Shown here piece by piece: positions 2,304 through 14,822 of a DNA stretch of 57,555 nucleotides; position 1 is the first letter of the stretch, and each line of letters opens with the position of its first letter. The stretch is from Bryobacterales bacterium. Its GTDB lineage: Bacteria > Acidobacteriota > Terriglobia > Bryobacterales > Bryobacteraceae. The position numbers and the translations under genes are program-made. The notes below the pieces were generated by a model. It ran no database searches, had not been told where the DNA came from, and worked only from the letters and a program-made list of their open reading frames with translations. The stretch covers positions 1 to 57,555 of the forward strand of contig CANIHR010000002.1 of NCBI GenBank assembly GCA_947467185.1, written 5' to 3'.

Positions 2304-3356
2304 ATGGATTTATTCTCACCTCTCACACTGGGCGACTACACGCTGACGAACCGAATTGCGATGGCGCCGATGACTCGGTCGCGCTCCGATTATCAGGGCG
2401 TTCAGTCGGAACTTGCGGTTGAGTATTACTCTTCCCGCGCTGATGCAGGGCTGCTGATCACCGAGGGTGTGGCTCCTTCCGCAATGGGCCTGGGCTATGC
2501 CCGGACGCCTGGGATCTACAACGACGAGCAGATCGCGGCGTGGAAGAAGGTCACCGACGCGGTGCACGCGAAGGGCGGTCGGATTTTTGTGCAGATCATG
2601 CACGTGGGCCGGATTGCGCACTCGGCGAATCGCACGATTGCGGATCAGCCGGTAGCTCCGTCGGCGATTCAGGCTGCCGGGCAGATGTGGACCGACAGCC
2701 AGGGGATGCAGCCGAACGATGTGCCGCGCGCACTGGAAACCTCGGAGATTCCCGGCGTGATCGCGGAATTCGCGACGGCGACGAAGAACGCGCTGGCCGC
2801 AGGCTTCGACGGTGTGGAACTGCACGCGGCATCTGGCTATCTGCCGAATCAATTTCTCAGTCCGAGCGCGAATCAGCGGACCGACCAGTATGGCGGTTCG
2901 ATTGAAAACCGGATTCGGTTCGTGGTGGAGACGCTCCAGGCGATGATTGCCGCGGCGGGTTCGGCGGGCAAGGTGGGCATCAAGGTAAGCCCCGGCATGA
3001 AGTTCAACGCGATCGACGATGCGGATCCGATTCCGACGTTCGTGGCGCTGGCCGAAGCGATTTCGCCGATGGGCCTGGCGTATCTGCACGTGATGCGCGC
3101 CGGGATTTCAGCGGAAACGAATCTTCGGGCGGCCTACAAAGGCACGCTGCTGGTGGGTGGCGGCTTCGATAAAGCGCAGGGGAACGACGCGATTGCCTCC
3201 GGTGCGGCCGATGGCATCGTGTTCGGTAACAAGTTCCTGGCGAATGCGGACCTGGTGAAGCGCCTGGCGACGGATGCTCCGCTGAATGCCCCGGATCCCT
3301 CGACGTTCTACACGCCCGGTCCGGTGGGTTATTCGGACTACCCGCTCCTTGGTTAA
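2304..3356 (+). CDS. Old yellow enzyme family alkene reductase
   Basis: FMN-dependent, NAD(P)H-using ene-reductase acting on alpha,beta-unsaturated carbonyls or nitro compounds (NemA/OYE family). The ATG at 2304 gives 350 residues, the usual family length. Visible hallmarks are the N-terminal APMTRSR stretch (residues 21-27, FMN binding), Q-I-M-H-V-G-R, the GFDGVELH segment and the NQRTDQYGGSIENR signature. The substrate pocket that is HxxN in many OYEs reads H-A-A-S here, which may shift substrate choice. The gene follows the phosphodiesterase by 4 bases. Its stop codon overlaps that of the facing carotenoid oxygenase by 4 bases. Confidence 0.92.
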   Translation: MDLFSPLTLGDYTLTNRIAMAPMTRSRSDYQGVQSELAVEYYSSRADAGLLITEGVAPSAMGLGYARTPGIYNDEQIAAWKKVTDAVHAKGGRIFVQIMHVGRIAHSANRTIADQPVAPSAIQAAGQMWTDSQGMQPNDVPRALETSEIPGVIAEFATATKNALAAGFDGVELHAASGYLPNQFLSPSANQRTDQYGGSIENRIRFVVETLQAMIAAAGSAGKVGIKVSPGMKFNAIDDADPIPTFVALAEAISPMGLAYLHVMRAGISAETNLRAAYKGTLLVGGGFDKAQGNDAIASGAADGIVFGNKFLANADLVKRLATDAPLNAPDPSTFYTPGPVGYSDYPLLG

Positions 3357-4786
3357 TCCTCGAATTCGAAGCTGGTGTGGAAGCCTGCGTGGATCATGTG
3401 CTTCAGCGGCAGTTTCGCAATCGGGCCTTTGGAGATATTGAAAGCGTCGAAGATCAGAAATTCGACGCGCCCTTCGGCCGGGAGGAAGTGTTCACTGATA
3501 ATGACCGCTTCCTCCGGGTTGTTGGGGTTATAGACCGACACCGGTTCCCCACCCAGGTACTCCTGCTTCGGAACGCGATAGGCATCGGCGATGGAAGTGG
3601 TCTTCCATGAGCCGTGGATCAGTTCATCGAAGAACTTGCGGCCATCGGCGTGGAATTCGCCGATACCCAAGGCCCAGAAATCGTTGAGTTCCGTGCCGGC
3701 GCGGGCGGCGTCAACTGCGGGGAAGTCGGGCGACTTGTCGTATTCCATGGCGACTCGCTGCACGAGAGCTTTGGTGTCGAGATCTATCACGTAGCGAACC
3801 GGCCGGCAGGCCGGCGCGGTCCCGAACAGGTCGGGGATCGGCTGGTATTCGCCGTAGATGGGCCGCTCCATTTCGAAGACGTCCATGTAGAATTTCCGGC
3901 CCTCTTCATGGCAGTTGATGACGTGGAGGCAGTAACCGGGTTCCACGTCGACGCGGAAGGCTTCTTCTGTCTTCGACGAGCGCGGTGTCACCAGTATAGT
4001 TGACCCTTTTTCCGGTTCCCAGCTTAGGGATTCCATCACGGAGACTCCCTCGTTGACGAAGCGGTTGAAGTCCATGATGAGTGGGCTGAGATAGAACGCG
4101 ACGTAGTTCGTCGTGAAGCCCATGTCGTGCAGGGAATGCTGGTACTTCAGGGGATGACGGCGGCGGCGCAGCATCTCACCCTGGGCATCGAACTCGTAGA
4201 CGTTGAGCATCGGTTCAAGGGCTGAGAAGGAGACCCCGAAGTTCAGGAGATGGCCGTTGGTGGGGTCGGTCTTGGCGTGGGCGGCGAAGGGTGTGATTTC
4301 ACTGACCGAACCGTTGAAGTCGTAATCGCCCAGGGATTCAAGGGTGTAGGGATGGAGCTCAATCGGCATGGCCTGTTCGGCAAAGGCGAGGAGCTTGCCG
4401 TTATACCGATAGACGCTGACGTTGTTGGGCGGCTCCAGCATTACGTTGCGCTTCGTTTTGTCACCCGGGAAGGCGGTTCCGAAGCCGCGATACAGGAAGC
4501 GTCCGGCGGCCTCTTCCTCCTTCAGTTTGATGGTCTGGACGAAGCGGTTAGTGAAGCGAACACCCTGGTCGGTGAAGCGCAGCGTGGAGACCATACCGTC
4601 GCCATCGAGCCAGTGCTTATAACGCATGCCCGCCCGCTCAAAGCGCGACGGGCCGTTCACATAGTAGGAGCCCCGGAGCCAGGTTGGTATCTGGCCCTCG
4701 ATCCCCGCAATGTCGTAGGAATCCTCGGTGGCGTCGAAGAGAAAACAGCGTTCGAGAAGCGGGGCGGCGTCGATTTGGGCGGGCAT
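3353..4786 (-). CDS. Carotenoid cleavage oxygenase family protein
   Basis: Non-haem Fe(II) dioxygenase of the RPE65/apocarotenoid oxygenase/lignostilbene dioxygenase family, which cleaves an interior C=C bond to two carbonyls. All four iron-binding histidines are visible: H170 (before AKTDP), H220 (SLHD), H288 (CLHV) and H470 (GFH). The length of 477 residues from ATG 4786 is normal for bacterial members. I rejected an upstream start at 4888 because it would run into the flavoprotein gene and adds no family sequence. It is the last gene of a minus-strand operon, 11 bases after the flavoprotein. Carotenoid versus stilbene specificity cannot be read by eye. Confidence 0.92.
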   Translation of the reverse strand: MPAQIDAAPLLERCFLFDATEDSYDIAGIEGQIPTWLRGSYYVNGPSRFERAGMRYKHWLDGDGMVSTLRFTDQGVRFTNRFVQTIKLKEEEAAGRFLYRGFGTAFPGDKTKRNVMLEPPNNVSVYRYNGKLLAFAEQAMPIELHPYTLESLGDYDFNGSVSEITPFAAHAKTDPTNGHLLNFGVSFSALEPMLNVYEFDAQGEMLRRRRHPLKYQHSLHDMGFTTNYVAFYLSPLIMDFNRFVNEGVSVMESLSWEPEKGSTILVTPRSSKTEEAFRVDVEPGYCLHVINCHEEGRKFYMDVFEMERPIYGEYQPIPDLFGTAPACRPVRYVIDLDTKALVQRVAMEYDKSPDFPAVDAARAGTELNDFWALGIGEFHADGRKFFDELIHGSWKTTSIADAYRVPKQEYLGGEPVSVYNPNNPEEAVIISEHFLPAEGRVEFLIFDAFNISKGPIAKLPLKHMIHAGFHTSFEFED

Positions 4787-4797
4787 GGTTTTGGGTT

Positions 4798-6555
4798 TTA
4801 AGAAACAGCTGACTCCATTGTTTTTTCCTCCATCGCGGTGGAGGTGGTGTTGACGAAGTTCTCCAGCGCGAACGGGTTCAGGTTCCACTGGTAGACATCC
4901 TCACAGGAAGCGTGCCTGGCGTAGTGTTCGCGCATTTTTTCGGGGTCGAACATGGTGTCCCGAAGCTTGATGCTGTTGATGAATGAGGCGTTCACCAGAG
5001 CGCGTTTGTCGGCTACCACCGAGGCGTAAACCTGGGCAATGATCCAGCGGGCGAACTCGCGGAGCCGTTCCACGTGCATATCGAGCTTGTCCTCGGCCTG
5101 CTCGTTGGTGAGCCCGACCTCGTAGAACAGCTTTTCCGACATGCGGAGCGGTTCGATCGAGTAAAACTCGACGTGCTCGGCGTTGGCGCGACCCAGCAGG
5201 TCGTTCGCCTTCTTCCAGTCGAAATAGTCGTGGAGGAGATGCTGGACGGTGCGGTTGATGGGGCCGAAGATGGCGAACCGGCGAAGGTAGGCCATCATGA
5301 ATTTCTTGTCGGCGAAGAGCTGGTTGACGAACGGCATCACGTAGAAGCCGAAGTAGATGGCCAGTTCCCAGGTGTACTTGAGGGTCAGGGTCTCCTGATC
5401 GCCGAGGCAGTTGTAGCTGAGTTGGTAAGACGGGATGTACGCGTCGTACATGACGCGCATGATCTGTTCGAAGAAACTGCACTTGGCTTCCAGATCACCG
5501 CCTTCCGGAGTCTGGATCGCATCCACGATGAGGGAGTTGTAGATGGCGATGAGGTCGGTGCCGGGGCTGTACAGGGGGTCGGAGAAGCGACCAGCTTCGC
5601 CAGTGATGGCCCATTTGGAGGCGTCGATGGTCTGCCGGGCGTCGTAGGAGTAGCTGACGAAGCGACCTTCATCGATAATCTTCCGTTTGGCGAAGTCTTC
5701 GGCGAACAGGGGCCAGTCTTTGGCGACCCAGTCAAGCATCTTGCGGCCGTTGGAGACTTCTTCGGGGTTGACGACGGCGTGATCGTAGACCAGACCCAGG
5801 CTGGTCTTGCCGTGGAGTGGAATCACCCAGAACCAGCGTCCTTCTCCGCAGAAGTGACCGGTGCCGAGGAAGAACGGGAAATTGCCGAGTTCCTGGCGTC
5901 GGGGGCTGTTGATCATTTCCTTGTGGGAGAGTTCGGTGAACCGTTCATAGTTCACGATGCCATCAACCCAGGCCCAGGTGGAGCCGTGCTGAATCTGGTT
6001 CGGTTTCTCTAACCCCAGACTTCTCTTGAGGATACCGGGACGACCGGAGGCATCGACAACCCACGGACTGATAGCTTCCCCTGTTGCCCAGGAGACCTTG
6101 TGGGCACCGCCGTCTTTTGCCAGATCCACCTTGATATTCTTCGCGCCGCCTATAAATTTGAACCGGGGATTCTCCTGGTTCAATTTCATGAGGTGTTCCT
6201 CGAGCAAGTTTCGGTCCACCTGGAAAGTGGCGATGTTCGAGATCGTGCGGATGGCGGAGGAGGAGATGTCCTTCCAGTAATCGCGCTTGCCGCCGGTGGT
6301 CTTCCAGTGGAAGCGGAGGTTGTATTTCAGGAAGTGTTTGGTGAGGAGATGTTCTTCGAGGTCGAGCGTGCGGTAGAGATAGTAACCGCCCAACTGAACC
6401 AGCGATTCCCCAACCTTCATGGATTTACCGGGGACGGTTTCCAGTTTGTCGAGAATCAGGACTGTTTTATCGGTGTAGAGGAGCAGTTGGCGGGCAAGGG
6501 TAAGGCCAGCCAATCCAGCGCCAGTGATAATGACGTCGGCTTGCACAGGGTTCAT
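4798..6555 (-). CDS. FAD-dependent oxidoreductase, flavin-dependent halogenase-like
   Basis: A 585-residue flavoprotein with the N-terminal dinucleotide fold G12-x-G14-x-x-G17. It has the halogenase-type signature W241-F-W243-V-I245-P246 (WxWxIP), K47-V-G-E-S51 in the position of the halogenase GES loop, and DPLYSPGTD at 326-334, similar to the FxPxSxG region. Flavin-dependent halogenases use reduced FAD, O2 and halide, but related proteins are plain monooxygenases or reductases, so halogenation is only a hypothesis. The C-terminal 200 residues are helical and of unknown role. The start codon overlaps the redoxin stop by 4 bases (ATGA), so translation is coupled. The carotenoid oxygenase gene follows after 11 bases. 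The flavin reductase partner is not in the window. Confidence 0.8.
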   Translation of the reverse strand: MNPVQADVIITGAGLAGLTLARQLLLYTDKTVLILDKLETVPGKSMKVGESLVQLGGYYLYRTLDLEEHLLTKHFLKYNLRFHWKTTGGKRDYWKDISSSAIRTISNIATFQVDRNLLEEHLMKLNQENPRFKFIGGAKNIKVDLAKDGGAHKVSWATGEAISPWVVDASGRPGILKRSLGLEKPNQIQHGSTWAWVDGIVNYERFTELSHKEMINSPRRQELGNFPFFLGTGHFCGEGRWFWVIPLHGKTSLGLVYDHAVVNPEEVSNGRKMLDWVAKDWPLFAEDFAKRKIIDEGRFVSYSYDARQTIDASKWAITGEAGRFSDPLYSPGTDLIAIYNSLIVDAIQTPEGGDLEAKCSFFEQIMRVMYDAYIPSYQLSYNCLGDQETLTLKYTWELAIYFGFYVMPFVNQLFADKKFMMAYLRRFAIFGPINRTVQHLLHDYFDWKKANDLLGRANAEHVEFYSIEPLRMSEKLFYEVGLTNEQAEDKLDMHVERLREFARWIIAQVYASVVADKRALVNASFINSIKLRDTMFDPEKMREHYARHASCEDVYQWNLNPFALENFVNTTSTAMEEKTMESAVS

Positions 6556-7103
6556 AGAGATCTCGGAAGGATGTAGTAGACGGACTGGACGGCGCAGCCG
6601 AAGCTGGCGGTTTCGGTACGACCGATGGGTTCACCGGCGAGGAAATTGTCGATGGCGGGTTCGAGGTAGCCGAGATATTCGGGATCTTCGGGGTACTTGA
6701 AATTGTCGACGGCGCCACGGTAGAGGAGGCGGAGGTCGGCATCAAAGAGGAAGGCGCGGGGGGTCTGCTGGGTGTACCACTTCGCGGCGGTCTTGCCCAT
6801 GGGATCGAGCAGAACGGGGAATGTAATTTTTCGCTCCTTGGCGGCCTTCTTCACGTCATCGGCGGTTTCACCGTGCCGGGAGGCGAGGATGAAGAATGCG
6901 AGATCGGGGTGGCGCTCCGGGAAGGTGTTGAAGGTCTGGTCGTAGCGGACGCAATGGGAGCAGGTGCTGGACCAGAAGATGACCACGCCGCCTTTCTTGC
7001 CTTCCATGGCGGTTGCGAGGTTGACATCGACGCCGTCGAGGCCTTTGAGGGTGAAATCGGGCAACGGTGCCCCAAAATCCTGCTTTACGTTCACTGTTTC
7101 CAA
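6552..7103 (-). CDS. Thioredoxin-fold redoxin (AhpC/TSA-like)
   Basis: A 183-residue thioredoxin-fold protein with the redox pair C48-S-H-C51 after a beta-strand ending in FW, and a cis-Pro loop in QQTPRAFLFD. A late cysteine sits in a SFGCAV segment (C170), typical of redoxin-domain proteins where it may act as a resolving residue. No signal peptide is seen. The start is a TTG at 7103 with a GGGAG ribosome binding site 8 bases away; an internal GTG is the alternative. It is the first gene of a tight operon with the halogenase-like flavoprotein and the carotenoid oxygenase. A role as their electron or thiol partner is inference from position. Confidence 0.85.
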   Translation of the reverse strand: METVNVKQDFGAPLPDFTLKGLDGVDVNLATAMEGKKGGVVIFWSSTCSHCVRYDQTFNTFPERHPDLAFFILASRHGETADDVKKAAKERKITFPVLLDPMGKTAAKWYTQQTPRAFLFDADLRLLYRGAVDNFKYPEDPEYLGYLEPAIDNFLAGEPIGRTETASFGCAVQSVYYILPRSL

Positions 7104-7111
7104 GATGAGAT

Positions 7112-7116
7112 CTCCC
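7112..7116 (-). promoter_or_regulatory. Ribosome binding site deciding the TTG start of the redoxin gene
   Basis: On the minus strand GGGAG lies 8 bases upstream of the TTG at 7103. No ATG in frame is better placed, so the unusual TTG start is preferred. Confidence 0.6.
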
Positions 7117-7173
7117 GTGGGTTTGCCGCAGAAAAGCGGTCTTTAAAGATAGATGCGCGAGACGCTGGCGCTT

Positions 7174-8469
7174 TTAGTCAAGTTCCATTGTGTCACCGGA
7201 GTTATTTAGTGCAAGTCCGAAGACGGATGTGTCACCCAATTCCCAACTCACCAGGTAAGAAATGCCTCCGGCGATGATTCCGGGGAGCAGAAGCTGGTGG
7301 TAGCAGCCGCTCATATCGGCGATCATCAACAGGCCGCTGAGGTAGCCCTTTACGATGGACCCAAACATAACGATCATGCCAAGTAGCACAAAAAGCTCGG
7401 GTTGCGGGGCAGCCTCGGGCCAGAGGGCGTGCAGGCCGTAGCCGAAAGCACCGCCGTAGAGCGAGCCCATCACGAGCGTGGGGGCGAAGAGGCCGCCGAC
7501 AGCTCCGGACCCGAAGGTGACCGAGGTAGCGAACATCTTCAGCAGCAGCAACACAACAAAAAGGGTGACGGTGAATTGTCCGTGGAGACCGGCAAGGATG
7601 GTGGGGTAGCCGGCCGAGAGGACCTGGGGATACCAGACGCCGAGGGTGCCGACGATGAGGCCACCGAGGGTGACGCGCGCCCAGAGGGGGAGGGATTTCG
7701 GGAAAAACCTGGGCATGGCGCGGAACATCGAAATAAAAAGGTGGCCGGTGGGGGCGGCCAGGAGGCCCATGAGGGGGACAGCGGTGAGGAGGGTCAGGGT
7801 GGGAAGGGGGTTCTGGGGGGCAGTGGGCTGGAACGGATAGGCGTCTCCCAGCAGCGTGGTGCGGAGGAGGTAGCCGAGGCCGGCGGCGGTGGCGATGGCG
7901 GTGAGTTCGCGATTCAGTTTGGCACCGAAAACCTCAAGGACCAGGAGGACCGCCCCGGCAGGGGAGCGGAAGGCTGCGGCGACCCCGGCGGCGGTTCCGG
8001 CGCGGACAAGGGTCCGAAGGTGGCGTCCGGAGAGGCCGAAAAGCTGGCCGGACTGGCTGCCGGCGAGGGCTCCAAGCTGGACCATGGGGCCTTCCGGGCC
8101 AACTGAGCCGCCGAATGCGAGGACCAGGCCGCTGGCGATGACGTTCAGGAGCCGAATGAGGCCGATTTTGCCGGATTCGGGGCCGGAGTACTGGCCGACG
8201 CGGTGGTGCAGGACTTCGAGGACTTCGCGGACGCCGCCGAGTCGGGTTTCGGGACTGAACTGGAGCCAGAGGCCGATGAGGAAGAGGCCGACGGTGGGGA
8301 TTCCGATGACATAGAGGGGGCGGGCTGCGGCCCAGCTGAAGAGAACTTCGTCGAGGTGGTTGGCAATAAAGTGGAAACCGATGGAACCGAGGCCGGCGAG
8401 GATACCGGCGAGGATGGTGGCTCCGAGGAGGCGGTGGACTCCGGTAGTGGAGGACGCGTGGGATGCCAT
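7174..8469 (-). CDS. ClC-family voltage-gated chloride channel/antiporter
   Basis: A 431-residue integral membrane protein with about ten hydrophobic segments. ClC signatures are present: GSVGPEGP (ion-selectivity loop carrying the gating glutamate) and GAVGGLFAPTLVMG (GxFxP loop). The helix between them reads SPAGAVLLVLEVF. Retention of the gating glutamate fits either a gated channel or an H+/Cl- exchanger. The canonical first GSGIPE loop is replaced by LGGVREV, a common divergence in bacterial members. I set the start at ATG 8469: an upstream extension to 8622 would translate the tRNA-Pro gene in antisense and is spurious. No CBS or TrkA-C domain is attached. Confidence 0.9.
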   Translation of the reverse strand: MASHASSTTGVHRLLGATILAGILAGLGSIGFHFIANHLDEVLFSWAAARPLYVIGIPTVGLFLIGLWLQFSPETRLGGVREVLEVLHHRVGQYSGPESGKIGLIRLLNVIASGLVLAFGGSVGPEGPMVQLGALAGSQSGQLFGLSGRHLRTLVRAGTAAGVAAAFRSPAGAVLLVLEVFGAKLNRELTAIATAAGLGYLLRTTLLGDAYPFQPTAPQNPLPTLTLLTAVPLMGLLAAPTGHLFISMFRAMPRFFPKSLPLWARVTLGGLIVGTLGVWYPQVLSAGYPTILAGLHGQFTVTLFVVLLLLKMFATSVTFGSGAVGGLFAPTLVMGSLYGGAFGYGLHALWPEAAPQPELFVLLGMIVMFGSIVKGYLSGLLMIADMSGCYHQLLLPGIIAGGISYLVSWELGDTSVFGLALNNSGDTMELD

Positions 8470-8505
8470 GAAGGAAGGGTAGCGTACCGGTGTTTGGAGC
8501 GGATG

Positions 8506-8535
8506 TTGGGTGCGGAGAGTGAGGGGGTGTAGACT
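8506..8535 (+). promoter_or_regulatory. Putative sigma70-type promoter of tRNA-Pro
   Basis: TTGGGT (8506-8511) and TAGACT (8530-8535) are separated by 18 bases. The -10 box ends 8 bases before the mature 5' end of tRNA-Pro. The match to consensus is partial (3/6 and 4/6), so this is a prediction only. Confidence 0.4.
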
Positions 8536-8543
8536 AGAGAAAT

Positions 8544-8621
8544 CGGGCTGTAGCGCAGCCTGGCTAGCGCGCTTGCTTGGGGTGCAAGAGGTCCCGGGTT
8601 CGAATCCCGGCAGCCCGACCA
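8544..8621 (+). tRNA. tRNA-Pro (anticodon GGG)
   Basis: Full cloverleaf: acceptor CGGGCTG pairs with CAGCCCG. The anticodon stem CTTGC/GCAAG encloses TTGGGGT, giving anticodon GGG. The T arm has GGTTCGAATCC. The discriminator A at 8618 is followed by an encoded CCA (8619-8621). It reads proline codon CCC, and CCT by wobble. Confidence 0.97.
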
Positions 8622-8705
8622 TTACCTCCTTTTCTTAGCCAGGAAATTCCTCCTTCGTTTTTGTTTAAGCACACCACAAGTTGGTTTGCTTCGACTGCGC
8701 TGCTT

Positions 8706-11462
8706 TCAGTTTCCTGAAACGGCTATCCAGTTCGCCCCCGAAACGGTAGAAACTCCCCCGATCGTCAGCACCACCGGAACGTATCCGCCAGGCTGAACGC
8801 CGGATGGGATTTGCAGGTTTAACTGCATGACGCCGGCGACAACCCCATATACACTCCCCGCGTATTGAACCGGTGCCGGGATTCCTCCAATGGTTGCGGT
8901 CACCTCCCCTCTCGGCTGAACCCAGGGCAGCGTTCCCAGTCTGCCATCAACAGCATCGGGAGTGGTCAGGCCTTCTCCTGTGGCGAAAAGGCCGACATAT
9001 TCGCCGATGCGCGCCGGGTTAATAGCGCTGTTCTGCTGGCCATTCGCGACATTGAATCCAGAGATTTGGCCGGAGCCCCAGCCCGTCCACGAGAAGAATG
9101 CGGGGGCCACTGGTGCTACCGGAACAGTGAAGGGCACCGAACTCTGTCCCTGAAATGTGACCGTGACGTTTGTTGTCTGCCCGGTCACCGTATACGGCAC
9201 CAAAGCGGCGACGGCAGATGGCAGCGTGTAGTAAACCGGGGCGGGAATTCCGCCGAAAGAGACGCTTGTGGATCCCAGCGAAGTGGAAACTCGGCCTCCG
9301 GAAGGCTGATTTACGGCCAACCCTGGTGATGCGAGATTGTCGCCGTAAATCAGAACGAATTTCCCGGGGGAAACAGCTGAAGTACGCTCGCTGGCAGCGT
9401 CCACGACTTCTGAAACGACGACGTTGCGGGTGGTGGACCTGAGAACACGCACCGCATTGTGTCCGGAGTCAGCTACCAGAAGGCTTCCCGCCGAATCAAA
9501 CGCTATGGCGGTCGGCGCGGCAAGATTAGCGCTCAAAGCAAACCCACCGTCGCCGTAGTGGGCGAGCGTTGAGGTAGTATTGGTACCCGCAACGGTAGTG
9601 ATGATCCCACTGGTGGAAACCATGCGGATGCGGTTACATGCCGAGTCTGCGATGAAAATATTCCCTGACTTGTCCACCGCCAGGCTCACCGGGCGGGCGA
9701 GTTGAGCCTGGAGCGCCGGACCTCCATCACCGGAACATCCCCGAGAGCCATTACCAGCCACCGCAACAATGAATCCGTTGCTCTGTACTTTCCGGATGCG
9801 ACTTGAGGCCGCATCGGCGATCAGCAATTGGCCCAGGCTGTCGAAAGCGAATCCGCCGATGTCGGACACCTGCGCAAGGAGCGCCGGCCCGTCATCCCCT
9901 GAGTAGCCAGTGACCCCATTTCCGGCGACCGCACTTACCACGCCGCTGGGCGTAACCTTTCGAATCCTGCCCTCAAAACGAAAATAGTAATTGCTTGAAG
10001 TGTCGACTGCCACCGTGGTGACTCTGGGAAGGCTTTCGGCCGGTTGCGGCAAATCGCAGCGATGGTCGCCGATGTAACCGGGGGTGCAGGCTGGAGGCTC
10101 ACCGCCAGCAGGGGTCAGGATGTTCCCACCAATGGTTACGAGCCGAATGCGACCATTTCGTGTGTCGGCAATCCAGATGTGCCCCGAATTATCGACCGCC
10201 ACACCTTCGGGAGAATTCAGCTGCGCGTCAATTGCGGGTCCGCCGTCACCCGAATAACCCGCGACTCCGGTACCTGCCACTGTGGTGACGAGACCCGTCG
10301 CCGAAACTTTCCGAACCCTGTTATTGGCTGTATCCGCGATGTAAACGTTCCCTGAGTCATCAACGGCGACTCCCGCCGGGGATCGCAGAGGTGCTGAGGT
10401 TGCCGGGGCACGGTCGGGGGAGTTGCCGGGTTTTCCTCCCCCTGCCAGGGTGGCAATGGTGTTGCCGGCGATGATCCGAATACGACCATTTAAGGTATCG
10501 CCGATCAGGATGTTCCCTTTTTCGTTTACCGCGAGGGCAGCGGGGCGATTGATACGAGCCTTAGCAGGGGGGCCATCATCACCTGAGTAACCCGGCTGGC
10601 CACCACCCGTCAGGACCGTCCTGACCCAACTGCTGGAAATCCTTACGACCGTATTGGCCAGGCTGCTCACAACGACCATACTTCCGTTGCGCTCCGCGGC
10701 CACGGCCACCGGACAAAATGCATCCGGTGAATAAGACAGGAAGCAACCAACGCCATCGTGCGGTGCGATTGCTGTCAGAATGCCCCCGGGCGAGAGCGTG
10801 CTCAGGCCATCCCCCTCGGCGATCAGCAGGTTACCGGACGAGTCGAAGGCGATCGCCCAGGGGCGGATCGGTAAGCTGTACCCAGCCGTGATAATGCCGG
10901 ATCGCCCAACCTTTCGAAGCGTGTTTCCGGAAATATCACCGATGTACAGGTTGTCGGCTGAGTCGACAGCGAGACTCCGCGGAATAATCTTCGAATCCAC
11001 TGCGGGGCCATTGTTGCCAGAGGAACCGGGCGTCCCGGTACCCGCAATAGTGGTAATGATGCCCGTGGGTGACACTCTTCGGACCCTTGCGTTGCCCGTG
11101 TCGGCTATAAACAGGTTGCCTAAGGAATCTGTCGCGAGGCCGTTCGGATTGAATAGCTGCGCAGCCACTGCAGGGCCACCATCACCGGAGTAACCGGGCC
11201 GGGCCGTACCAGCAACGAGGGTTACGATGCCATCCGGGGAGAGTCTGTAGACGCAATTCTCTGCCGCAAAGAAGGCATTCCCGCCCGAATCAAGGGTAAG
11301 GCTGTCTATCTGTGGGAATGCAGAATCCAGGGCACTGGCTGGCGTTGGTGCCGGGGCGGCGCCGGCCAGTGTTGAAACTACGAACTGTTGTCCCCGGCAA
11401 ACGCTGATTGCGAACATGCAGATCACGCCGATAGCGCAACTGCGAAACGGCAATATGCTCAT
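8706..11462 (-). CDS. Secreted NHL beta-propeller protein with C-terminal TIGR03437-type domain
   Basis: About 918 residues. A signal peptide (hydrophobic segment ending near C-R-G-Q-Q) is followed by roughly eleven NHL-like repeats. Their recurring units are GYSGDGGPA, LAVDSSGNxxIADxxNxRVRKV and GxIxTVAGTG, building one or two beta-propellers. The last 230 residues (from about VVDAASER) match the TIGR03437 domain, an Ig-like module that ends many Solibacter exported proteins. The role is unknown; such propellers usually bind ligands or proteins outside the cell. I chose ATG 11462 because the longer frame to 11525 adds a charged stretch before the signal peptide, and GGAAGGA precedes this ATG. 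It diverges from the kinase gene at 11586. Confidence 0.88.
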   Translation of the reverse strand: MSILPFRSCAIGVICMFAISVCRGQQFVVSTLAGAAPAPTPASALDSAFPQIDSLTLDSGGNAFFAAENCVYRLSPDGIVTLVAGTARPGYSGDGGPAVAAQLFNPNGLATDSLGNLFIADTGNARVRRVSPTGIITTIAGTGTPGSSGNNGPAVDSKIIPRSLAVDSADNLYIGDISGNTLRKVGRSGIITAGYSLPIRPWAIAFDSSGNLLIAEGDGLSTLSPGGILTAIAPHDGVGCFLSYSPDAFCPVAVAAERNGSMVVVSSLANTVVRISSSWVRTVLTGGGQPGYSGDDGPPAKARINRPAALAVNEKGNILIGDTLNGRIRIIAGNTIATLAGGGKPGNSPDRAPATSAPLRSPAGVAVDDSGNVYIADTANNRVRKVSATGLVTTVAGTGVAGYSGDGGPAIDAQLNSPEGVAVDNSGHIWIADTRNGRIRLVTIGGNILTPAGGEPPACTPGYIGDHRCDLPQPAESLPRVTTVAVDTSSNYYFRFEGRIRKVTPSGVVSAVAGNGVTGYSGDDGPALLAQVSDIGGFAFDSLGQLLIADAASSRIRKVQSNGFIVAVAGNGSRGCSGDGGPALQAQLARPVSLAVDKSGNIFIADSACNRIRMVSTSGIITTVAGTNTTSTLAHYGDGGFALSANLAAPTAIAFDSAGSLLVADSGHNAVRVLRSTTRNVVVSEVVDAASERTSAVSPGKFVLIYGDNLASPGLAVNQPSGGRVSTSLGSTSVSFGGIPAPVYYTLPSAVAALVPYTVTGQTTNVTVTFQGQSSVPFTVPVAPVAPAFFSWTGWGSGQISGFNVANGQQNSAINPARIGEYVGLFATGEGLTTPDAVDGRLGTLPWVQPRGEVTATIGGIPAPVQYAGSVYGVVAGVMQLNLQIPSGVQPGGYVPVVLTIGGVSTVSGANWIAVSGN

Positions 11463-11585
11463 GAGCAGACGGGTCCTTCCGACCGCCCTCAGTGTACTCC
11501 CAGCGAGACGAAACCTGAAATACACTTCAATGCGTCGACGTCTGGTTCATCCCCGTTGTAGTATTGAAGCCTCCGCATAGCGAAC

Positions 11586-14500
11586 ATGCAGCTCCAACCT
11601 GGTGACAACCTCGGGGATTACGAAATCGTCTGCCTGCTTGGCAAAGGCGGAATGGGCGAAGTTTGGAAAGCCCGTGACGGGCGGCTCGGACGCGATGTTG
11701 CGATTAAGACGTCGGCTCAGCAGTTCTCCCATCGTTTCGAAAGCGAGGCACGTGCCATTGCCTCGCTCAATCATCCCAATATCTGCACGCTTTATCACAT
11801 CGGTCCCAACTACCTTGTGATGGAACTGATCGAGGGACCGACCCTGGCTGAGCGGATGAAACAGGGTGCGATTCCTCTGGAAGAAGCGCTGGGGTACGCG
11901 AAACAGATCGCCTCTGGCCTGGAAGCGGCGCACCAGAAATCCCTCGTGCATCGTGATCTGAAACCGGCCAACATCAAGATCCGGCCCGACGGTTACGTCA
12001 AAGTGCTGGATTTCGGTTTGGCAACCACCGACACAGTGCTCGGCCCCGATGATCCGACCGAGCTGATCACTACCGGACAATTGCTTGGGACAGTTCCCTA
12101 TATGTCTCCCGAGCAGGCTCGCGGCGAAATGGTGAGCAGTTCATCGGACATATTTGCTTTCGGAATTGTGCTCCATGAGTTCCTGGCGCACCAGCATCCG
12201 TTCCGTTCCGGCTCAGCGGCGGCGACCCTGAACGCAATCGTTTCCTCCACGGTTCCCCCGCCGTCGCAACTCGAACCCGCAATCACGCCGGAACTGGACA
12301 TGCTGATTGTCGGCATGCTGGAAAAGAACCCTGCGCTGCGTCCTTCCGCTCGGGAAGTTGCAGAGGCACTGGAAGGTCTCACGCAAGGCAGGACGCGGGT
12401 GTTTCCCCGCCGCTCTTCCGTTACGACAGCCCCCCGACCCTTAGCCGGACGTGACCTGGAACGCGCCGCAATGTTTACCGCATACGACGAAGCCGCCAGA
12501 GGGCGGGGTGTGTTGCTGTGCCTGGCAGGGGAAGCTGGCGAAGGGAAGACCACGCTGGCCGAGGACTTCCTATCCCGGCTCCCCGAATATTCGGCAGACT
12601 GTCTGATTGCCCGCGGCCTTTGCTCCGAGCGTCTGGCAGGCAACGATGCGTGCCTGCCGTTTCTGGAGGCGCTGGAAGGAATGCACCGCATCGGAGGAAT
12701 TGCCGGACGCCTGATGCCACTACTCGCGCCGAGCTGGTTCGTACAGATCGCGAGCACCGGGTCTCTGCCCGAAGCGCCGTCGCCCGAGAGGATGAAATGG
12801 GAGTTGGGGCGGTATCTGGAAGAGCTTTCGAAACACCGCCCGGTTGTCCTGTTTTTTGATGATCTGCATTGGGCGGGGTTAGCGACAGTAGATCTGGTCG
12901 CGTATCTGGGGACCCGGTTGGGATCGCTCCGAATCCTCATGGTGGCGACCTACCGCCCGGGCGATCTGCTTCGTGACCGACATCCCTTCCTGCCGGTTCG
13001 GCTTGAACTGGAAGGCCGCGGGATGTGCAGGGAAATCCGTACCGTACTACTGGACCTGAACGCAGTCGCAGAGTATCTGCAACTGGAATTCCCTGGCCAC
13101 GCATTTCCTCCGTCTTTTGCGGCCTCCCTGCACAGGCGCACGGAGGGCAATCCCCTGTTTCTGGTGGACCTGCTGAAATATCTGCGGGACCGTGGCGCCA
13201 TCACATCGCAGGAGGGTGTGTGGCGGCTCAATGAGTTGGCGGCGGATTTTGAACGCGACCTGCCTGCTTCGGTTCGAAGCATGGTGGAGAGAAAAATCGG
13301 GCAAATCCAGGAGACTGACCAGAAGCTTCTCGACGCCGCGAGTGCACAGGGACAGAAATTCGATTCCGCAGTTGTTGCCCGGGTTCTCGGCGTGTCGGCG
13401 GATGAAATTGAAGATCGCCTGGATGCACTGGAACGTCTCCATGCCGTCGTACGGCAGGTGGAAACCCGGGAACTGCCAGACCGAACTCTGACGCTCCGGT
13501 ACCGGTTCGCTCATGCTCTGTACCAGAACGCGATCTATGCTGCCATTCGCCCCACACGGAAGGCAACGCTGAGCGGTGCGGTGGCTCAGGCACTACTCGA
13601 GTTTCACGGGGATCGAAGCGATGATCTGGCGGCGGAGCTGGCGCTGTTGTTCGAAGTGGCCCGCGACGCGAACCGGGCAATCCAGTTCTTTGCGATCGCG
13701 GCGCAAAATGCCGTACAGGTGTTTGCGAATCGCGAGGCGGTTGTCTTCCTCCGCTCCGCGCTGCGTTTACTGAAGACGCTTCCGCAGGATAGTGATCGGG
13801 ACTTCCGGGAGTTCGGGTTGCAGGTCGCGCTGGGCCCCTCTCTTGTGGCCACACGAGGCTATGCCTCGCCTGAAACGAGAGAGGCTTACACGCGCGCCCG
13901 ATTTCTCAGCCACGGTCTGGGAAACCCAGGGGCGCATTTCGACGTGTTGTTTGGCCTGTGGAATTTTCACGAAGTTTCGGGACGCCTGCAGGATGCCGGA
14001 GAGATGGCAAATGAGCTTCTGGCGCTGGCGGAAGAGAGCGGCGAACGGACCCGCCTGCTGCTGGCTCATCGTGCCATCGCGAATGTCGCACTATGGACTG
14101 GTGATCCACGCACTGCCAAAGCCGAATTTGAGCAGGCACTGGCCATTTACTCGCCGGAGCACCATCATGAAGCACTCCGGGGAGCCGTCGTTCCCGGGAT
14201 GGCCTGCCTCGGCATGCTGGGCTGGACGGAGTGGTTGCTGGGCAATACCGCGCATGCGACTGAATGTATCGACAAACAGTTCGCCATGGCCCGTGAGATC
14301 GCGCAACCCTTCACGACTGCCATCTCCCTTATCGATGCCAGCCTGTTTTACCAGTTCTGCGATGATCCTGCGGCGGTGAGAAGAACGTCAGCGGCTCTGA
14401 TTCATCTCGCAGAGGAGCAGGGTTTTGCTCTGTGGCTGGCAGGCGCCCGGGTGATGCATGGGTGGGCAACATTCCAGTCTGGCGAGTGCGAGGACGGGTT

Positions 14501-14822
14501 GGCGGAAATGCGCCAGGGGATCGAGCAATGGGAGGCGACAGGAGCTCAATTGGCGAGTCCCTATTATCACTCTCTGCTGGCAGCAAGTCAGGGGCAGGCG
14601 GGCGACACAGAAGGCGGTCTGGCCACGCTGGAACTGGCGCTGAGCCGGACGAAAGAAACCGGCGAGACGTGGTGGATGCCGGGTCTGCTTCTGGTCCGGG
14701 GCGACCTTCTGGCGGCGAACGAACCCGACGCTTCCAAAGAAGCCTGGACCGCAGCACTGGAACTGGCGCGATCCTCAGGAGCGATGGCGTTCGAACTGCG
14801 CGCGACGGAACGACTGAGATAG
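11586..14822 (+). CDS. Ser/Thr protein kinase fused to AAA-type ATPase and TPR-like region
   Basis: A 1078-residue cytosolic regulator. Residues 12-265 form a PknB-type kinase with a glycine loop (GKGGMGEV), K41, H122-R-D124-L-K-P-A-N and D142-F-G144. From about 287 an AAA/STAND-type ATPase begins: P-loop GEAGEGKTTL with K321, and Walker B FFDD ending at D425-D426. The remaining 500 residues are helical repeats of TPR type, with conserved GNPLFLVDLLKYL like other kinase-ATPase regulators. No transmembrane segment or DNA-binding domain is visible, unlike LuxR-type relatives. It probably integrates a signal through the repeats and phosphorylates unknown targets. The ATG at 11586 is well placed before the kinase fold but has no clear ribosome binding site. 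Confidence 0.92.
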   Translation: MQLQPGDNLGDYEIVCLLGKGGMGEVWKARDGRLGRDVAIKTSAQQFSHRFESEARAIASLNHPNICTLYHIGPNYLVMELIEGPTLAERMKQGAIPLEEALGYAKQIASGLEAAHQKSLVHRDLKPANIKIRPDGYVKVLDFGLATTDTVLGPDDPTELITTGQLLGTVPYMSPEQARGEMVSSSSDIFAFGIVLHEFLAHQHPFRSGSAAATLNAIVSSTVPPPSQLEPAITPELDMLIVGMLEKNPALRPSAREVAEALEGLTQGRTRVFPRRSSVTTAPRPLAGRDLERAAMFTAYDEAARGRGVLLCLAGEAGEGKTTLAEDFLSRLPEYSADCLIARGLCSERLAGNDACLPFLEALEGMHRIGGIAGRLMPLLAPSWFVQIASTGSLPEAPSPERMKWELGRYLEELSKHRPVVLFFDDLHWAGLATVDLVAYLGTRLGSLRILMVATYRPGDLLRDRHPFLPVRLELEGRGMCREIRTVLLDLNAVAEYLQLEFPGHAFPPSFAASLHRRTEGNPLFLVDLLKYLRDRGAITSQEGVWRLNELAADFERDLPASVRSMVERKIGQIQETDQKLLDAASAQGQKFDSAVVARVLGVSADEIEDRLDALERLHAVVRQVETRELPDRTLTLRYRFAHALYQNAIYAAIRPTRKATLSGAVAQALLEFHGDRSDDLAAELALLFEVARDANRAIQFFAIAAQNAVQVFANREAVVFLRSALRLLKTLPQDSDRDFREFGLQVALGPSLVATRGYASPETREAYTRARFLSHGLGNPGAHFDVLFGLWNFHEVSGRLQDAGEMANELLALAEESGERTRLLLAHRAIANVALWTGDPRTAKAEFEQALAIYSPEHHHEALRGAVVPGMACLGMLGWTEWLLGNTAHATECIDKQFAMAREIAQPFTTAISLIDASLFYQFCDDPAAVRRTSAALIHLAEEQGFALWLAGARVMHGWATFQSGECEDGLAEMRQGIEQWEATGAQLASPYYHSLLAASQGQAGDTEGGLATLELALSRTKETGETWWMPGLLLVRGDLLAANEPDASKEAWTAALELARSSGAMAFELRATERLR

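Follow-up and report, generated by a model that had tools for sequence, protein, structure and literature searches.

Do a redoxin, a halogenase-like flavoprotein and a carotenoid oxygenase (CCO), encoded in one tight gene run, make up a pathway of their own, or are they part of a larger one? The three genes lie on the minus strand of the window, by which we mean the whole 57,555-nucleotide stretch of Bryobacterales DNA analysed here. The redoxin (7103–6552, TTG start, 183 aa) is followed by the flavoprotein (6555–4798, ATG start, 585 aa) and the CCO (4786–3353, ATG start at 4786, 477 aa). The first two genes overlap by four bases (ATGA, 6552–6555), and an 11-base gap separates the flavoprotein stop from the CCO ATG. 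This order and spacing, described in an earlier note on this DNA, were re-found exactly, and the motifs it listed were all located: WxWxIP (as WFWVIP), DPLYSPG, the four iron histidines and CSHC. In mechanical ORF calls the CCO begins instead with the GTG at 4888; the ATG at 4786 matches the N-termini of most aligned homologues.

We judged the halogenase relationship of the flavoprotein by profile, motif and fold tests. The protein matches Pfam Trp_halogenase (1.4e-08, 34.5 bits, cut-off 21, with no single stretch alone below 0.001), and its profile matches include PltA, CmlS, ChlB4 and PltM. It carries GxGxxG, K77, WFWVIP at 241–246 and DPLYSPG at 326–332, followed by an extra C-terminal helical region (about 380–585). 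In a 22-row alignment (one gene, L023/L060, being entered twice), the FAD-binding residues of the GxGxxG and GES motifs (G12, G14, G17, G49, E50) are invariant, as is K77 at the catalytic-lysine position. K77 aligns by profile with K76 of PltA chain 5dbj_E, which we take to be K73 in native numbering; on CmlS its placement is ambiguous between two neighbouring lysines. W241, W243, I245 and P246 occur in all CCO-linked flavoproteins aligned, those of G232 and G394 lying outside the alignment. The nearest folds to the predicted model (pLDDT 74.3, pTM 0.80; residues 326–331 below pLDDT 50) are CtcP, PltM, CmlS and Bmp2. With these halogenases and PltA the flavoprotein has in common the fold, the FAD motifs, WxWxIP, the catalytic-lysine position and D-P-x-[YF]-S-x-G; it differs in identity (only 15–20%), in its helical C-terminal half and in being set among type II polyketide synthase (PKS) genes. 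The conserved motifs and closest folds thus bear out the earlier assignment to the halogenase type. Grouping with the geranylgeranyl reductases, which would have undone that assignment, does not hold, the score against TIGR02032 being 24.8 bits where the cut-off is 158.8. We therefore regard the protein as a halogenase-like enzyme that may halogenate its substrate.

The reaction could also be an oxygenation, with the flavoprotein, although descended from halogenases, serving the same polyketide pathway as a monooxygenase or epoxidase, a reading compatible with our main explanation below and one to which we give only slightly less than an even chance. Monooxygenases have this fold too: the best halogenase score is Z 28.3, against 27.4 for PqsL and 26.8 for PHBH, with differences below 1 treated as a tie. 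We recognised no gene for a flavin reductase close by. Halide supply is at best a possible role for the ClC-type chloride channel/antiporter (7174..8469, minus strand; Pfam Voltage_CLC 1.2e-65) that lies 70 bases upstream of the redoxin on the same strand, and its membership of the locus is doubtful: the gene is also upstream in G015, G007 and G002, and it was found neither at the G010 locus nor, among the distant loci retrieved, next to the pair. (Its start at 8469 is a chosen one, the ORF reaching 8622, into a tRNA gene.) Against the monooxygenase reading stands the invariance of K77 and WxWxIP in the CCO-linked members compared, as the catalytic lysine and WxWxIP together mark halogenases.

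The third protein matches Pfam RPE65 at 6.5e-94, and its nearest solved structure is the apocarotenoid-15,15'-oxygenase ACO (6c7k, 6.1e-40). Comparison of 18 distinct subfamily members and one outgroup shows the iron ligands H170, H220, H288 and H470 to be invariant in all 18, in agreement with the four histidines first noticed. In the second shell E137 and E414 are kept, and the third position is D354 where ACO has E370, Asp being present in 18 of 18 members and Glu in the outgroup (L105). The shell is therefore not one of three glutamates; the change to Asp is a conservative one, and membership of the CCO family stands by fold and Pfam match. The likeness to ACO (6c7k/2biw) comprises a whole-length match, the four iron histidines and two of the three second-shell glutamates; the differences are the Asp in place of E370, Gly or Ala in place of ACO W149, and linkage to KS, CLF and ACP genes. 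On sequence grounds it is an RPE65/CCO-fold enzyme in a subfamily of its own, which would be expected to cleave a polyene double bond.

The flavoprotein and CCO genes form a conserved pair, as the earlier note implied, and they do so outside the window's class as well. They are adjacent on the same strand in the window and 13 sister loci, and neighbours in 13 of the 16 genomes found to hold both (they lie apart in G232, G394 and G006). Among 61 near-home genomes the CCO occurs in seven, the window's genome included, and a homologue of HMG-CoA reductase (HMGR) occurs in the identical seven; the flavoprotein (at least 61% identity) is found in six of these, and the seventh genome's contig ends inside the CCO. 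Across 396 genomes of the phylum, searched with profiles built from the window's genus alone, the CCO is present in 11 (E 1e-101 or better), all of which hold the flavoprotein, itself present in 12 (3e-165 or better). CLF scores at least 457 bits in nine of the 11, and a tenth has a borderline CLF. Only the best three or four candidates per genome were scored, so absences in these searches are not firm: G068 has the pair and no CLF above background (best four candidates scored), and G286, 77% complete, has CLF and flavoprotein and no CCO match. A scan of genome contigs gave three loci, matching G015, G007 and G010, and no new lineage. Distance matrices of flavoprotein and CCO correlate at r = 0.93 (16 genomes) and at 0.71 with near relatives excluded (11 genomes). 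For CCO and CLF the correlation falls to 0.37 over 10 genomes, a value reached in 443 of 5000 shuffles, and is therefore of little weight; what stands in this matrix as the CLF of G075 may be that genome's KS. Hypergeometric values, which take no account of relatedness, were set aside.

What the pair works with is suggested by its neighbours elsewhere. Ten genomes with the CCO were found outside the class: in six of them pair and type II PKS genes (KS, CLF and usually ACP) stand in one gene run, and in seven KS-CLF stands in one run with the flavoprotein. The simplest runs are KS-CLF-flavoprotein-CCO (L096, in which no ACP was seen) and ACP-KS-CLF-flavoprotein-CCO (L100, L101). HMGR and CrtI homologues join some of them, as in ACP-KS-CLF-HMGR-flavoprotein-CCO (L099, in G428), ACP-KS-CLF-flavoprotein-CCO-HMGR-CrtI (L103, in G378), ACP-KS-CLF-HMGR-PlsC-flavoprotein (L140) and KS-CLF-HMGR-CrtI-ACP-PlsC-...-flavoprotein-CCO (L142 with L097). 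In the window's genome, contig C109 brings together ACP, KS, CLF, an HMGR homologue, a FabG-like ketoreductase and a CrtI-like enzyme. Pair and PKS half are on different contigs there, and the link between them in this genome thus rests on the relatives.

The Cys-His-His set of the KS (C176, H309, H346) is intact and invariant in 11 sequences; none of the 11 CLFs, read by motif, has a His at either site, and four of them lack the Cys as well. The ACP (L054:8529-8798) matches PP-binding at 3.6e-13 and has a DSL serine, with homologues in L055, L056, L099–L101, L103, L121–L123, L140, L142 and L144–L147, and a ketoreductase (KR) is present in the window's genus. By these features KS, CLF and ACP are a type II PKS with a dedicated ACP. 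The KS scores 346 bits against 6kxd, presumably a polyene type II KS, 303 against the best FabF-type entry and 252 against the actinorhodin KS, a similarity on which we base the view that the product is probably a polyene. Structure 9s5h is the best match of both KS (485 bits) and CLF (213 bits); no paper on 9S5H was found in the open PMC literature.

We think it likely that the flavoprotein and CCO tailor a type II polyketide, probably a polyene, and the window's trio is best read as half of a type II PKS cluster that is divided in two, the other half being on C109. The earlier proposal of a dedicated oxidative pathway acting on a conjugated substrate remains plausible in the light of the conserved pair; its other element, a trio that is the pathway in itself, we reject, as the KS/CLF half belongs to the pathway. 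In the scheme that we propose, KS, CLF, ACP and the ketoreductase would build a long unsaturated polyene chain, with dehydratase perhaps supplied by fatty-acid synthesis, and the CrtI-like enzyme would desaturate or isomerise it. The flavoprotein, with reduced FAD and O2, might then halogenate or oxygenate the conjugated chain, the CCO with O2 could cut a double bond to give an aldehyde, and the HMGR homologue may reduce the thioester so that an alcohol or aldehyde is released. Product, halogenation and cleavage are all inferred. Several observations weigh against the scheme: among the cluster ORFs searched no dehydratase, starter-loading or flavin reductase gene was recognised, the two halves lie on different contigs in the window's genome, and the exceptions described here for G068, G286, G232, G394 and G006, for HMGR in G428, G394, G306 and G378, and for the CrtI family in G016 do not fit it well. 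If this is right, the CCO gains a polyketide substrate and the HMGR homologue a chain-release role outside the mevalonate pathway, in a cluster family that combines polyketide and carotenoid-type enzymes in several genera of one phylum. A more specific version is tentative and rather less probable: that the whole pathway mimics carotenoid metabolism, with a PKS-made polyene, a CrtI relative, a CCO cut, halogenation and reductive release by the HMGR homologue. This would lead to a polyene alcohol or aldehyde, halogenated or resembling a retinoid, which the PlsC-like enzyme might attach to lipid.

A true carotenoid or apocarotenoid pathway, in which the CCO cleaves and the flavoprotein oxidises an isoprenoid carotenoid and HMGR and CrtI provide supply and desaturation, appears improbable to us. 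ACO as nearest solved relative of the CCO and the CrtI-like and HMGR homologues within the clusters argue for it. The HMGR homologue has E118, K247, D321 and H411 invariant in nine of nine sequences, at what we take to be the catalytic Glu, Lys, Asp and His positions of Class I HMG-CoA reductase. In the window's genus it is nonetheless probably repurposed, outside the mevalonate pathway, because the MEP-pathway GcpE is present in all seven genus genomes and HMG-CoA synthase (PF08540) has no match in any of them. G176 and G075, with the HMGR homologue inside the cluster, likewise have GcpE and no HMG-CoA synthase match. PF08540 does match in five of 11 distant genomes, all five without GcpE, which favours the carotenoid reading; since G428, G394 and G306 have the synthase family match and no GcpE, HMGR may serve isoprenoid synthesis in them. 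G378 has neither. A PF00494 match of some kind occurs in 15 of 15 genomes searched, and G016 holds a phytoene-desaturase/CrtI-family protein at 430.7 bits (cut-off 238.1). In the window's genome, however, the only PF00494 matches are two genes in tandem, which read as the hopanoid-synthesis proteins HpnC and HpnD (HpnC above its cut-off, HpnD at 259.2 against 278.6), and a carotenoid pathway leaves no place for KS, CLF and ACP.

The polyketide reading has partial parallels among known polyene systems. As CrtP is a CrtI-type flavoenzyme, the simocyclinone protein SmcC4 may parallel the CrtI-like gene of the present clusters, not the CCO. SmcC4 is placed with CrtP in the carotenoid oxygenase family and proposed to oxidise a polyketide polyene (PMC11727611). 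The limocrocin pathway, as described there, resembles our clusters in its type II KS pair, ACP, KR and DsbA-family proteins; it differs in its ABM monooxygenase Lim18 and DH genes, and the covered part of its gene list includes no HMGR homologue or halogenase (PMC11727611). In the aryl polyene/xanthomonadin clusters, too, the polyene synthase is of type II and its CLF is unusual, and in two Xanthomonas species the cluster has a halogenase gene; the Lysobacter cluster described differs in its two DH genes, starter-unit gene and transporters, and the text covered mentions no CCO, HMGR or CrtI (PMC3691225). Among the open PMC titles listed, a set outside which most subscription journals fall, none described a type II PKS cluster with a CCO, a halogenase-like flavoprotein and an HMGR homologue. 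Within the open PMC literature we also found no paper joining HMGR with a type II polyketide and polyene, and no description of a polyketide cluster borrowing carotenoid-type enzymes.

Oxidation of aromatics or stilbenes in the manner of the lignostilbene dioxygenases, in which phenols would be the substrates of the flavoprotein, is very improbable. Phenol halogenases are among the nearest flavoprotein folds, and a lignostilbene dioxygenase model gives the CCO its best NCBIfam score, although at 163 bits where the cut-off is 800; structure searches match the CCO better to ACO. Stilbene, one of two substrate classes first entertained, becomes less likely because the phenol-binding lysine, which we take to adjoin the first second-shell Glu, is missing, its site being Gly in 16 of the 18 members and Ala in two.

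The redoxin is the weak link of the trio. It is a ResA-like thiol-disulfide redoxin by its CxxC and family match (Pfam AhpC-TSA, 8e-13), with CSHC at 48–51 and C170 within a C-terminal S-[FY]-G-C motif; C48, S49, H50, C51 and C170 are invariant in 11 same-genus homologues. It lies upstream of the pair in five loci, with one or two FG-GAP/UnbV genes intervening in two of them (L022, L030), and within the genus it usually precedes an FG-GAP/UnbV gene. Among the distant loci retrieved from outside the genus, none showed it next to the pair; a single candidate (L095) turned up there, and it is TlpA-like, 32% over about 85 residues. The expected three-gene order is thus not conserved beyond the genus in the loci examined, where the pair is; a fixed partnership is not borne out, and the redoxin is probably a genus-level accessory, which might keep a cysteine partner reduced or act with the FG-GAP/UnbV protein. 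That redoxin and ClC genes were not found next to the pair in those distant loci would suit an accidental neighbourhood of housekeeping oxidoreductases, the least probable reading of all and for the pair already contradicted, since its recurrence outside the class, its adjacency in 13 of 16 genomes and its common distribution over 396 are not chance.

A long FG-GAP/UnbV protein (at least 500 residues at at least 52% identity) is found in the same seven of 61 near-home genomes as the CCO, with at most the 17 best candidates per genome scored; shorter matches above 52% occur elsewhere. An enediyne link, suggested by the name UnbV and a 483-residue family, was dropped: there is no usable Pfam or NCBIfam match, and a Foldseek search with the family's model (pLDDT 69.9) gave nothing that reached E 0.001. 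Tail to tail with the CCO, with its stop codon at 3356, lies a gene for an Old yellow enzyme, considered as a possible flavin partner; it stands beside the CCO in G015 and G007 and was not found there in L022 or L030. In these last two loci only, an NMT1-type ABC transporter lies downstream.

Three genes lie close together on the minus strand of the window: a redoxin with a TTG start (7103–6552), a halogenase-like flavoprotein (6555–4798) that overlaps it by 4 bases and, 11 bases further on, a carotenoid cleavage oxygenase (CCO; 4786–3353). These coordinates, re-derived here, bear out the placement given in the earlier note, and the motifs claimed there for the three proteins were found as well. 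A scan of 3000–8700 revealed no terminator-like sites at either junction, and 3 across the whole region against a mean of 6.1 in shuffled sequences. When the three-gene order was sought in other genomes, the flavoprotein–CCO pair recurred, at 14 loci in 13 genomes: nine loci outside the class, where the flavoprotein directly precedes CCO on the same strand (L095–L101, L103, L104), together with G015, G007, G002, G010 and the window. The two genes lie apart in G006, G232 and G394.

We suggest that a type II polyketide pathway probably uses the flavoprotein and CCO for oxidative tailoring of its chain, which is likely a polyene. Gene linkage, co-distribution and intact active sites are shown by the sequences; the polyene nature of the chain and the order of the steps are inferred. 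Ketosynthase (KS) and chain length factor (CLF) genes share one gene run with flavoprotein and CCO at L096, L099, L100, L101, L103 and in G176 (L142 and L097), where the run reads KS, CLF, HMG-CoA-reductase homologue (HMGR), CrtI, ACP, acyltransferase, ABC1-kinase-like, unassigned family, ABC1 kinase, a weakly similar unassigned gene, flavoprotein, CCO. The KS–CLF run of G394 (L140) holds the flavoprotein without CCO; G075 carries HMGR and CrtI ~20 kb from the pair on one contig (L144), together with KS and a CLF that reads as broken. HMGR homologues occur in L099, L103, L140, L142, L144 and L146, and CrtI homologues in L103, L142, L144 and L146. In the window's genome, contig C109 (L054) carries, in transcription order, ACP, KS, CLF-like KS, HMGR, FabG-like reductase, CrtI-family enzyme and UnbV protein. 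The ACP-to-CrtI run is also present in G015, G007, G006, G002 and G010, and in G016 up to the contig end; in G006 it lies on the same contig as CCO (C44), ~10 kb away, with UnbV-type genes between (L121).

A CCO profile made from the window's genus only and searched over 396 phylum genomes reached 18 of them to E 1e-20, 11 at 1e-101 or better and seven at 3e-59 or weaker. With the flavoprotein profile, 12 genomes scored E ≤ 3e-165 and the following one 2e-74; all 11 CCO genomes fall within these 12, the extra one being G286 (77% complete). A CLF profile, built without G394, G176, G232, G075 and G286, gave 10 genomes with at least 457 bits, then G075 at 327, with FabF background up to 316 among the best four candidates per genome; a loose cut-off was passed by 340 of the 396. 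Within the same best four candidates, CLF is clear in nine of the 11 CCO genomes, borderline in G075 and not seen in G068. Among 61 genomes searched nearer home, the window's own included, CCO is found in seven (G000, G015, G007, G002, G010, G006 and G016, whose contig terminates within the gene), and the HMGR homologue is restricted to exactly these. The flavoprotein occurs at 61% identity or more in six of the seven, with any match at 0.001 in 13 of the 61. An UnbV protein of at least 52% identity over at least 500 residues marks the same seven (among the best 17 or fewer candidates per genome), weaker or shorter matches extending to 47 of the 61. An unnamed family, predicted to be all-helical and without a usable Pfam or NCBIfam match (L059:11135–12586, L066:1715–3142, L097:15350–16708, L122:17836–18882), occurs in all seven genus genomes with CCO, none of nine tested without it and four of 11 distant ones (profile rows from five of these genomes).

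The active sites are intact. KS residues C176, H309 and H346 are invariant (n = 11), as are HMGR residues E118, K247, D321 and H411 (n = 9), and CLF lacks His at either catalytic place in 11 of 11 and Cys in four. Against solved structures KS scored 485 bits with 9s5h_B, then 346 with 6kxd, which we take to be the ishigamide polyene KS, 303 with a FabF-type entry and, lower, 252 with the actinorhodin KS. CCO matches the RPE65 family over its whole length (Pfam 6.5e-94), with ACO its nearest solved structure. Across 18 distinct subfamily members (L073/L121 and L074/L126, each the same gene, being taken once), two second-shell glutamates and the four iron histidines, shared with ACO, are invariant, whereas ACO E370 is replaced by Asp in all 18 and W149 by Gly in 16 and Ala in two; L105, the outgroup, agrees with ACO at both positions (Glu, Trp). 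A particular lysine marks stilbene dioxygenases, and at the position expected for it the subfamily lacks this residue.

The sole Pfam family listed for the flavoprotein is Trp_halogenase (34.5 bits, cut-off 21, no single stretch passing alone). Geranylgeranyl reductase, the class whose match would, by the earlier note, have refuted its reading, scored 24.8 bits where 158.8 are required, and the flavoprotein is not of that family. A profile from six relatives first matched PltA, CmlS, ChlB4 and PltM. The AlphaFold2 model (pLDDT 74.3, pTM 0.80) best matched CtcP, PltM and CmlS; in a second fold comparison Bmp2 and PltM reached Z ~28, but fold alone cannot decide the class because PqsL (27.4) and PHBH (26.8) score close to the halogenases. 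K77 aligns with a PltA lysine, presumably the catalytic one, and K77, W241-x-W243-x-I245-P246 and D326-P-x-Y-S-x-G are present in all CCO-linked flavoproteins compared, a set that left out G232 and G394. In descent and in its active-site signature the protein resembles halogenases. AMP-binding/NRPS-like surroundings are a second setting of this type, ~30% identical relatives adjoining such genes in G018 and G005 (L024:7084–8880, L025:7051–8661, L026:7023–8642).

All seven genus genomes have GcpE (MEP pathway) and no HMG-CoA synthase match, and the same holds for two further carriers of the HMGR homologue, G176 and G075. G428, G394 and G306 combine the homologue with an HMG-CoA synthase family match and no GcpE match, so that a double role of HMGR is possible there; G378 matched neither GcpE nor HMG-CoA synthase. 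In the window's genome PF00494 is represented by two genes in tandem, apparently HpnC and HpnD (the latter just below cut-off), and thus by no clear phytoene synthase. G016 may make carotenoids; its third PF00494 gene adjoins a phytoene-desaturase-family protein scoring over cut-off.

In the proposed pathway the type II synthase would build a probably polyene chain, on which flavoprotein and CCO would then act oxidatively. Cleavage by CCO seems an even call, reductive release by the HMGR homologue falls slightly short of that, and halogenation by the flavoprotein is a tentative suggestion. CrtP is a CrtI-type enzyme, and SmcC4 of simocyclinone, having been grouped with it, may parallel the CrtI-like gene of the present clusters, not CCO. 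A paper that places SmcC4 with carotenoid oxygenases including CrtP, and proposes that it acts on a polyketide polyene, also describes limocrocin, in whose type II polyene cluster DsbA-family proteins are encoded (PMC11727611). Xanthomonadin clusters combine a type II polyene PKS and a halogenase gene (PMC3691225). Type II PKS clusters have been catalogued, with KS-CLFs from Acidobacteria among them, and a word search of that main text for carotenoid, halogenase and HMG found none (PMC10132072). As far as the literature was searched, none of these systems shows the combination present here.

The earlier note had placed the redoxin in the operon as thiol partner. It is an AhpC-TSA/ResA-type protein whose C48-S-H-C51 motif, like its third cysteine (C170), does not vary among the 11 homologues compared, all from same-genus genomes. 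Its adjacency to the flavoprotein holds in the window, G015 and G007, but in the other eight homologues it directly precedes a long TPR/FG-GAP/UnbV_ASPIC gene. UnbV genes separate it from the flavoprotein in L022 (one) and L030 (two), and for the window's genome as well as for G015 and G007 the nearest UnbV copy, 70% identical to the G002 copy, lies on another contig. The redoxin thus seems to belong to a redoxin–UnbV two-gene module visiting the trio locus. Neighbours of this module vary (Na/H antiporter, FadL-like porin, GMC oxidoreductase further on; L058, L059, L061, L064, L065, L022, L030). Arrays of at least four FG-GAP/UnbV and TPR genes directly precede the ACP-KS-CLF run in the window's genus (L054:8803–16607, L121:1658–11511, L122:2–9222).

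A ClC gene, which would fit halide supply, lies immediately upstream in four of five near loci; the distant loci examined yielded none. In the window a plus-strand tRNA-Pro(GGG) (8544–8621) sits inside the 5′ end of the mechanically called ClC ORF (7174–8622), so the gene must start further in, probably at 8469. Neighbouring ORFs, judged from translation, are a 939-residue repeat protein with an NHL look (8706–11525) and a 1078-residue protein with a serine/threonine kinase-like N-terminal part (11586–14822). Downstream of CCO on the opposite strand, L022 (10990–14370) and L030 (10431–13835) carry an NMT1-type substrate-binding protein, two permeases and an ATPase, 83–88% identical between the two genomes.
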